In this document: positions 42,894 to 58,929 of the stretch, piece by piece
Numbering within the stretch: position 1 is the first letter of the stretch
How the letters are laid out: every line of letters begins with the position of its first letter
Assembly (NCBI RefSeq): GCF_031128465.2
Contig: NZ_CP155618.1
Location: 3,586,501 to 3,650,500, forward strand
Origin: Mariniflexile litorale
GTDB taxonomy: Bacteria > Bacteroidota > Bacteroidia > Flavobacteriales > Flavobacteriaceae
Length of the DNA: 64,000 bases
Direction: 5' to 3'
Position numbers and translations under genes: made by a program
The notes under the pieces: model-generated
Database searches by the model: none
What the model saw: only the letters and a program-made list of their open reading frames with translations
Told to the model about the DNA's origin: nothing

Positions 42894-43063
42894 ATCAAGC
42901 AAATTATTTTTCATTTAGTAGTTTTTCTAAATATTCCATTTTATCTAGTTTAGATTTAATAACCAAGCGCTTTAAGTCATTGGATACCTAATTAAAAAGT
43001 AATATATTGCATACATAAACGATATAATTGCAATAAGATTAATTTATTGTGGTTATACCTATC
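42894..43063 (+). repeat. X repeat, copy A
   Basis: This 170-bp copy shares CAAGCGCTTTAAGTCATTGG and AACGATATAATTGCAA with five other copies and ends exactly at the GTT core (43064) of cassette 1. On the minus strand it keeps a 27-codon open end, VSNDLKRLVIKSKLDKMEYL and then EKLLNEK with a stop, which looks like the fossil 3' end of a gene. Confidence 0.85.
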
Positions 43064-49637: not shown

Positions 49638-49865
49638 ACGCCCAACACCGTATCCTATGAAAAGCACTAAAGTTAATATTTATTTTTTAATTATCTCATA
49701 ATGAATATTCTATGATGTTGGAATGTTGATCTAAATACTCCATTTTATCTTTAATAATCAAGCGCTTTAAGTCATTGGATACCTAACTAAAAAGTAATAT
49801 ATTGCATACATAAACGATATAATTGCAATTAGATTAATTTATTGTGGTTTTATACAGTGTTAGCG
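49638..49865 (+). repeat. attC-like site 5 with X repeat copy C
   Basis: ACGCCCAAC (49638) complements the cassette start GTTGGACGT apart from one base. After a short left arm (ACCGTATCCTATGAAAAGCAC, also seen in site 4) the X repeat begins at 49730 and runs to 49858, just before GTTAGCGGT. The X copy keeps the fossil minus-strand frame intact. Confidence 0.75.
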
Positions 49866-51983: not shown

Positions 51984-52318
51984 TTTAACCGTTTGGTCGT
52001 TGCTTTGTTTGCTAGCTTCCGATTTTCCTTCGGAAAACCCTCGCACACAACCACGCAACTTTCCAAGATACACCAAACACTAAGCAATTTCCTAAAAAAT
52101 GGTTGAACAAGTATAGTAACGAAGAAGGTTTACTATTCTATATTTTGCATCAAGCAAATTATTTTTCTTTTAGTAGTTTTTCTAAATACTCCATTATTTT
52201 ATCTTTAATAATCAAGCGCTTTAAGTCATTGGATACCTAATTAAAAAGTAATATATTGCATACATAAACGATATAATTGCAATTAGATTAATTTATTGTG
52301 GTTATAGATGTGTTAGGC
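51945..52318 (+). repeat. attC-like site 7 with X repeat copy D
   Basis: AAGGCCAAC (51945) is the exact complement of the cassette 7 start. The apex is GATTTTCC-TTCG-GAAAACC (about 52021-52037). The long form of X (52050-52311, 262 bp) follows. The right core GTTAGGC is at 52312. X copy D carries a two-base insertion that breaks the fossil minus-strand frame. Confidence 0.78.
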
Positions 52319-55500: not shown

Positions 55501-55869
55501 TGCACAACAAGCCGTGTATAATTAATTGCTTGGTCACTGCCGACTTAAGAACATTCCTGCGGAATATTCTATCTGTGATTTATTTGCTAAATTTAGTGCT
55601 TAAACCACGCAACTTTCCAAGAGACACCAAACCCTAAGCAATTTCCTAAAAAATGATTGAACAAGTATAGTAACGAAGAAGGTTTACTATTCTATATTTT
55701 GCATCAAGCAAATTATTTTTCTTTTAGTAGTTTTTCTAAATACTCCATTTTATCTTTAATAATCAAGCGCTTTAAGTCATTGGATACCTAACTAAAAAGT
55801 AATATATTGCATACATAAACGATATAATTGCAATTAGATTAATTTATTGTGGTTATACATGTGTTAGGT
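55501..55869 (+). repeat. attC-like site 10 with X repeat copy E
   Basis: The left core TGCACAAC matches only the GTT of its cassette start, so this unit is an exception. The left arm ends in an ATTCC-TGC-GGAAT apex (about 55552-55566). X copy E spans 55604-55862 with the fossil minus-strand frame intact. The right core is GTTAGGTTT at 55863. Confidence 0.7.
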
Positions 55870-56253
55870 TTAATCCAAAAAATAAAATGGTAAACCGTTC
55901 CATAAAAATCTGAAAGGTAATTTTTTAAGCACTGATTTTAGAAAGGGATTAGGAAAATCCCTAGTTAAGTTTTTTCAGTTACACTGTGAAAGCCAGTGCT
56001 TTCAAACATTGTGAATGTTACAAAAACTTACGAAAATTAGTGGTTTTTTTTGACAAAACCAAGAAATTTTAAAATCAGTGCTTAAAAAATGTTTGATTTC
56101 TACAGATCAGACAGCACTTATACAAATATAAAGGTCTATATGATCTGTGTTTTAAGTAACGGATAGGTGGATTCATTGGTTTGTTTATTTTTTCGGACTC
56201 CGCCTTTTCTATAAAGAATTTTTTATCTTTGAGAGACAAAAAAACAAAAGGCT
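55864..56253 (+). ncRNA. Cassette 11: gene-free, hairpin-rich unit
   Basis: This 390-bp body has no plausible reading frame, yet its ends are perfectly complementary over ten bases like other cassettes. It contains a perfect 21-bp inverted repeat (55920-55940 and 56070-56090) enclosing AGGGATT/AATCCCT and GAAAGC-CAGT-GCTTTC stems. An ACAGATC/GATCTGT pair lies near 56100-56145. An encoded structured RNA, or a small element nested in a cassette, is possible. No known RNA family is recognised. Confidence 0.45.
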
Positions 56254-56323
56254 AAACCTAACACTGTATAACCAGCCATAGCCGCCTATCGGCAGGCTAC
56301 GGTGGTTATACCTATCGTTGGCA
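56254..56323 (+). repeat. attC-like site 11, minimal form
   Basis: This is the shortest site, 70 bp. AAACCTAAC complements the start of cassette 11. TATAACC pairs with GGTTATA, and CATAGCC with GGCTACG, around a GCC-TATC-GGC apex. The right core is GTTGGCAGC at 56317. Its size and simple stem are closest to classical short attC sites. Confidence 0.85.
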
Positions 56324-58570: not shown

Positions 58571-58929
58571 TGTGGGCAACAAAGTATATAATTTAGCTAA
58601 ACCAATGTTAGTTGCTTGTTTGCTAGCTTCCGATTTTCCTTCGGAAAACCCTCGCACACAACCACCCAACTTTCCAAGATACACAAAACCCTAAGCAATT
58701 TCCTAAAAAATGATTGAACAAGTATAGTAACGAAGAAGGTTTACTATTCTATATTTTGCATCAAGCAAATTATTTTTCTTTTAGTAGTTTTTCTAAATAC
58801 TCCATTATTTTATCTTTAATAATCAAGCGCTTTAAGTCATTGGATACCTAATTAAAAAGTAATATATTGCATACATAAACGATATAATTGCAATTAGATT
58901 AATTTATTGTGGTTATACATGTGTTGGCA
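58571..58929 (+). repeat. attC-like site 14 with X repeat copy F
   Basis: TGTGGGCAAC (58571) is the exact complement of the cassette 14 start. The apex GATTTTCC-TTCG-GAAAACC and X copy F (58661-58922) nearly repeat site 7. The right core is GTTGGCAAC at 58923. Sites 7 and 14 are thus recent copies of each other's body, although the cores differ. Confidence 0.8.

Follow-up and report, generated by a model that had tools for sequence, protein, structure and literature searches.

Unit 11 of the cassette array described here is probably a mobile gene for a noncoding RNA, packaged as an integron-type cassette, transcribed with its array and acting in trans, a reading to which we give a probability of roughly 0.7. 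The unit lies within a window of 64,000 nucleotides, positions 3586501-3650500 of the single-contig 4.52-Mb genome of Mariniflexile litorale, where from about 43 kb on small genes are found almost all on the plus strand with repeats between them; features of the window are given below in its plus-strand coordinates. A conserved folded element sits in this ORF-less cassette and recurs in other Bacteroidota, often together with cassette ends.

The cassette is 400 bp long, from GTT to AAC (55863-56262), and has a homologue of 425 bp over its whole length in G318, a genome of another genus. Its ends are exact reverse complements over ten bases (GTTAGGTTTA at 55863-55872 and TAAACCTAAC at 56253-56262), as an earlier note on this DNA had claimed, and the match extends to 12 nt (55861-55872 and 56253-56264); the end of the unit at 56262 was also correctly placed in that note, whereas the start given as 55864 has to be moved by one base, to the G of GTT at 55863. 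Just outside, another ten nucleotides pair perfectly (TGGTTATACA at 55850-55859 and TGTATAACCA at 56265-56274). This is the layout of integron attC sites, by analogy with which the boxes at the ends are named R and L. At the left junction (55850-55872), recognized by its inverted repeats, an L'-like box at 55850-55859 is followed by an R'-like box from 55861; the junction consists of the end of the preceding long attC-like repeat and the start of unit 11, and this preceding repeat resembles the 3' end of an integrase gene plus its adjoining site. On the right, inverted repeats and sequence delimit an attC-like site (56253-56322) composed of R'' (56253-56264), L'' (56265-56274) and then L' and R' (GTTGGC, 56317-56322). 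With complementary GTT and AAC ends, R boxes and adjoining L boxes, unit 11 has the makeup of an integron-type cassette. It also has no reading frame, as previously claimed: the ORF list of the window holds no ORF of at least 60 aa between 55492 and 56346 and within the unit no stop-to-stop stretch exceeds 58 codons, a length reached on the minus strand, as expected of an ORF-less cassette carrying a small RNA. The upstream neighbour encodes a 165-aa protein with weak COX1 similarity below the cut-off, the downstream neighbour a DUF6985 protein.

Repeats between the units show features of their own. Stretches of about 90 bp at 42978-43058, 49773-49861, 52227-52314, 55778-55865 and 58838-58926 are 81-85% like the 3' ends of the integrase genes at 4.158 Mb and 0.647 Mb of the same genome together with the site next to them. 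The window's array has no integrase, yet an attI-like junction seems to stand at the start of several of its units. The attC-like repeats of about 300 bp at 52005-52304, 55559-55858 and 58616-58915 are unusually long, a 128-nt subset of them being present in five copies, and by eye their reverse strand resembles the end of an old reading frame.

The folded element stands apart inside the cassette, at least 57 bp from either end. Its block spans 171 bp (55920-56090), and the 21-base stretches at its two ends are exact reverse complements of each other, in agreement with the 170-bp block and perfect 21-bp inverted repeats reported before; the match between the arms extends to 24 nt at 96%. The further perfect stems reported between the arms correspond to two 7-bp stems, one in the hairpin at 55944-55962 and one in that at 56041-56061; the hairpin between them (55966-56030) is longer and bulged. 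In the predicted fold, one long outer stem closes on these three hairpins. The outer stem P1 has its 5' arm at 55920-55943, of which the first 21 nt are perfect, and its 3' arm at 56067-56090, and is supported by the inverted repeat, the fold, covariation and a swap of arms between copies. Hairpin 1 (55944-55962), with seven base pairs and AGGA in its loop, has three of the seven pairs changed on both sides in G318; hairpin 2 (55966-56030) is the most conserved part of the family; and hairpin 3 (56041-56061), a U-rich module UUUUGACAAA...CAAG, is conserved in sequence, its stem being poorly supported across the family. The core matched by covariance models R2 and R3 covers 55966-56073. Further towards the 3' end an inverted repeat would form another hairpin, CAGATCA...TGATCTG (56103-56147), with a G318 counterpart seen by eye, and the sequence GCCTTTT...AAAAGGC (56202-56252) may form a closing stem, with GTCTTT...AAAGAC as its counterpart by eye in G318. 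The fold of 165 nt of the block has an energy of -53.1 kcal/mol, lower than any of 200 dinucleotide shuffles, whose mean is -27.5 (sd 3.7; z -6.9), and the reverse strand reaches a z of -8.0, so that the fold alone cannot name the RNA strand.

A BLAST search with the cassette gave matches in 21 of 397 genomes of the family, its own included; five matches were inspected (L043-L046 and L048), and only that in G318, the one convincing BLAST relative among these genomes, was kept, the other four being short. The G318 unit starts with GTTAG, ends in TAAACCTAAC like unit 11 and has no long ORF, and the similarity spans the whole cassette, both sides of the block included. The minimum-energy folds of the two cassettes, predicted separately and compared through a sequence-only alignment, have 51 pairs in common (of 59 and 65), and 16 of the 51 are changed on both sides in G318. 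Eleven of these 16 fall in the outer stem, whose arms largely differ in sequence between the two, and when the pairing partners are slid by 1-3 columns at most four two-sided pairs are left. The two-sided changes constitute the main evidence that it is a fold which is kept, not a sequence or a palindrome. Since the 52-pair structure used in the sliding comparison was derived from the two predicted folds, and its 100% paired cells exist by construction, the independent facts are the 51 common pairs and the two-sided changes.

When 39 distinct copies are aligned, two-sided changes occur at every one of the 28 modelled pairs, with 165 two-sided cells vs 48.5 in shuffles and a covariation of 0.420 vs at most 0.086 when slid. 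These pair counts lean towards the model, to which the large alignments (A5 and A6) had been fitted. Support differs between helices: the share of paired cells is 93.6-96.6% for helices 1, 3 and 4, 70.0% for helix 2 and 51.4% for helix 5, which is hairpin 3. From this alignment RNAalifold predicts 19 pairs, each of them with two-sided changes; hairpin 3 contributes none. The outer stem is outside the 28-pair model and was tested separately by swapping arms among 29 copies: the mean energy is -31.9 kcal/mol with native arms vs -19.6 with swapped ones, and 15 of the natives are better than all swaps, while four rank 14th or lower. The conserved secondary structure expected of a small-RNA cassette is thus present. 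A structured RNA had been one of the options in the earlier note, which proposed covariation in homologues as a check; with the two-sided changes both against G318 and throughout the 39 copies the option is strongly supported, as homologous cassettes keep the fold via compensatory changes.

The element recurs in the family and reaches beyond it. Model R1, built from unit 11 and its G318 homologue, matched in 10 of the 397 family genomes at E<=0.01. One R1 match, L068 1501-1647 in G209, was dropped as a near-perfect 147-nt hairpin matching on both strands; this hairpin, at -120.9 kcal/mol, is placed inside a longer inverted repeat and is possibly an assembly artefact. A pattern from the core common to unit 11 and G318 was found in five contigs of the genome collection, all named as Bacteroidota, namely two uncultured Flavobacteriaceae, a Polaribacter, a Bacteroidetes bacterium and Kriegella sp. 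EG-1, the last with a single copy. Model R2 was built from twelve sequences and, at E-values that are rough for all these models owing to a short calibration, has matches in 28 of the 397 genomes at E<=1e-4 (eight of them sources of training sequences, the other 20 not) and in 44 at E<=0.01; the 16 further genomes with E between 1e-4 and 0.01, some of which have only the 3' module, are not relied on. In a phylum-wide draw eight of 395 genomes matched R2 at E<=5e-4, five from the same family, one from another family of the order and two from other families of the phylum. Among six genomes of the window's genus the core is found in the window's own, the other five being without a match. Up to eight copies are present per genome (eight in G085, six in G105, five in G298 and four in G261), and many genomes have a single one; the same cassette occurs at different array positions and in different genomes. 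No match was obtained for unit 11 in plasmid and phage collections, for three other family copies in the plasmid collection or for two hairpin-2 core patterns in viral contigs. ORFs of at least 80 codons overlap the core in nine of 40 copies examined and are mutually similar in two loci only; homologues with an intact gene, which according to the earlier note would have shown unit 11 to be a decayed copy, were not seen.

An exact rule for cassette ends (GTT...AAC with at least seven complementary bases) is satisfied by 15 of the 38 copies with enough flank; the background is 63 of 768 positions drawn at random from these loci (8.2%), some of them true cassette ends, and two of the 15 (L126 and L137) are doubtful by eye. 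The rule fails for 23 of the 38, and several copies beyond the 15 have imperfect ends by eye; in twelve copies the cassette ends are 380-431 bp apart. In one array (L085) the RNA cassette is the sole repeated unit by megablast, with four copies 94-100% alike, and in another (L087) other cassettes are repeated too. Within the inspected arrays the copies share their orientation.

Among 198 ORFs around 40 copies, the tyrosine recombinases, present at nine loci, are the sole group found in more than three loci, and no other conserved protein partner reaches this number; at seven of the nine loci the recombinase is directly upstream of the copy on the same strand. For 63 copies in 34 genomes, seven are located 163-230 nt behind an integrase, one (G442) is divergent, and 17 more are within 30 kb downstream of an integrase, with integrase matches taken at >=162 bits to exclude XerC/D-like proteins, at which level three of the 34 genomes have none. 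No RNA match was found in 60 other integrase-downstream regions, picked among the matches listed at loci without a known neighbouring copy and including eight shorter than 400 bp at contig ends, nor at the two integrase loci of the window's genome. The RNA was therefore rejected as an obligatory partner of the integrase, and recombination does not require the element. The integrase family at the seven copies is also present in the window's genome, where the protein fits best to TIGR02249 (integron integrase) at 186.9 bits, below the cut-off of 265, and aligns to IntI4 (2a3v) in two pieces and to the XerC-like 4a8e in one. The gap in the IntI4 alignment apparently corresponds to the IntI-specific insertion, which would be missing from this integrase, and a canonical IntI integrase with the insertion was not found for the unit 11 cassette. 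Members of the tyrosine recombinase family head arrays at L034 and L035 (G000:C1:4157313 and 646298) in the same direction as the cassettes, and 213 of 329 genomes of the bacterial family contain matches to it at E<=1e-45. Separately, G105:C1 encodes eight related 304-aa tyrosine recombinases of about 119-122 bits (e.g. 2152945-2153727), some of them inside cassette arrays.

The plus strand, which is the direction of the array genes, is presumed to be the RNA strand. It folds better in 33 of 36 copies, an advantage that base composition mostly explains as judged by shuffles; the excess left after shuffle correction is -1.2 kcal/mol (23 of 35 copies, p 0.08), and the strands fold about equally vs shuffles, with mean z values of -4.4 and -4.3. 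G-U and A-C cells number 28 vs 33 over all helices, 0 vs 10 in helix 1, 6 vs 2 in helix 3 and 5 vs 3 in helix 4, and for the two closest homologues they number 6 vs 0 on the plus strand.

Exact occurrences of AAGTTAGT-N11-ACAAAGTCAA, the 3' portion of the core, without the rest of it were found in seven of 20 chosen genomes, and the reversed pattern in none of the same 20. The isolated module often follows short attC-like hairpins ending in CGTTAAACG. The pattern is present in 42 viral contigs, some of the matches being T-rich like the genomic ones and others apparently unrelated or redundant. Model R3 gave no match at E<=0.01 on these 54 module loci, two genomic relatives reaching 33 bits with filters off, and the isolated module may be either an RNA domain in common or a DNA site. 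Short elements with the 3' module only are L127 1501-1567, L128 1501-1567, L201-L212 and some of L213-L254.

No family of Rfam 15 reaches its threshold in the window between 38000 and 64000, and none does so in the 19 homologous loci scanned; with the limit relaxed to E 10, unit 11 has 14 sub-threshold matches (best E 0.029) and the G318 homologue has eight (best 0.27), with no family in common. Group IIC-attC introns are structured RNA elements associated with attC sites, and unit 11 is unlike them in having no intron-encoded protein and no match at threshold in the Rfam library, which includes group II intron models. These introns are mentioned in the available part of PMC8876359. ORF-less integron cassettes are known, some with promoter activity, from the accessible portions of PMC11014356 and PMC8876359, and those of Vibrio and oral Treponema likewise combine an attC-type end, the lack of a gene and a place in an array; they were tested for promoter activity, whereas unit 11 stands out by its covarying multi-hairpin content across genera. 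The words sRNA, ncRNA and Rfam are absent from the accessible portion of PMC11014356. According to the text available of PMC12444791, the noncoding sRNA-Xcc1 is carried on a Xanthomonas integron cassette and has spread between species, but that cassette also encodes symE, both running against the usual cassette direction, whereas unit 11 has no ORF; the available part of PMC8876359 instead assigns sRNA-Xcc1 to ORF-less cassettes. Its likeness to unit 11 is one of description. Nothing like the element is named in the available part of a Flavobacterium psychrophilum transcriptome (PMC9723704), and nothing similar in that of a survey of 104 candidate RNAs (PMC2864571), where the word integron is absent as well. 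A structured RNA family in Bacteroidota integron cassettes was likewise not found in the literature covered, which was mostly non-subscription and consisted of titles and the beginnings of abstracts. As neither Rfam at threshold nor this literature holds such a family, the RNA family appears to be new, within a known kind of cassette.

Selection very probably keeps a folded nucleic acid at unit 11. A decayed protein gene that folds by chance would explain why the unit has no gene though its neighbours have one, but it is scarcely credible in view of the two-sided pair changes and of core ORFs that are unrelated save in two loci. The 171-bp block with its perfect 21-bp inverted repeats could also be a miniature inverted-repeat element inserted in a decayed cassette, akin to the small palindromic element considered in the earlier note. 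This is highly improbable, since the block, which the note suggested looking for elsewhere, occurs just once in its own genome, the exact-arm pattern is found in none of the genome contigs scanned (the own genome perhaps not being among them), the G318 similarity reaches both sides of the block, and the arm sequences vary between copies with the pairing kept. No homologous cassette cleanly without the block plus a target duplication has been found so far, nor have dispersed copies outside cassettes with the same terminal repeats, as would be expected of a MITE. The folded molecule is probably RNA. Integron recombination uses folded single strands, and a fold selected as DNA, in the form of a single-stranded hairpin or cruciform aiding recombination, replication or protein binding, would be consistent with the nearly equal folding of the two strands and with the solitary 3' module behind attC-like hairpins in other genomes. 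It is nevertheless improbable, as the element is separate from the cassette ends and missing from the 60 integrase-adjacent regions, and the plus-strand counts for the closest pair are six G-U cells and zero A-C.

Whether the folded element acts in trans or on the array that carries it is, taken alone, a matter of even odds, and action on the array is the main rival to a trans-acting RNA. Folded RNA in the array transcript could insulate or attenuate it or be a site of its processing, or the cassette could supply a promoter to those behind it. Unit 11 may also have a regulatory role, the remaining option of the earlier note. With a role in cis several copies can share one array, which agrees with the up to eight copies per genome and their uniform orientation within the inspected arrays, and near the 3' end of both unit 11 and its G318 homologue there is an octamer, TATCTTTG, which resembles the Bacteroidota -7 box. 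The octamer is, however, missing from most of 18 cassettes scanned and preceded by a -33-like box in three only. The promoter activity of gene-less cassettes (PMC11014356 and PMC8876359, in their accessible portions) also favours such a role, but a conserved multi-hairpin fold is needless for a simple promoter or terminator and many genomes have a single copy; on the whole we consider action in cis rather unlikely. A discrete trans-acting RNA is preferred in view of the elaborate fold, each piece of which is conserved, and of the usual lack of a tie to one neighbour. An integrase would move unit 11 as a circle through its complementary ends, the unit would be transcribed in the array's sense direction, and its folded transcript would be a discrete RNA at work in trans. 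The most likely partner of this RNA is a protein or another, targeted RNA, which it would bind via hairpin 2 and via conserved but unpaired sequence around hairpin 3.

A wider view, tentative and with the odds against it, is that of a large structured-RNA family living as integron-type cassettes throughout the Bacteroidota, whose members would be RNA-only accessory genes, amplified in arrays, often first behind the integrase, and with a biochemical activity of their own such as RNA-based defence or control of the platform, the hairpin with the AAGUUAGU...ACAAAGUCAAG module serving as an RNA domain that is reused widely. The usual view of a cassette array is that of a store of protein genes, and gene-less units tend to be ignored or tested only as promoters. 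The family provides a concrete object for the role of gene-less cassettes, and the natural variation in its copies already suggests compensatory mutants. If the proposed reading is true, an RNA family moves between genera as a cassette, and integron-type systems would trade functional RNAs as well.
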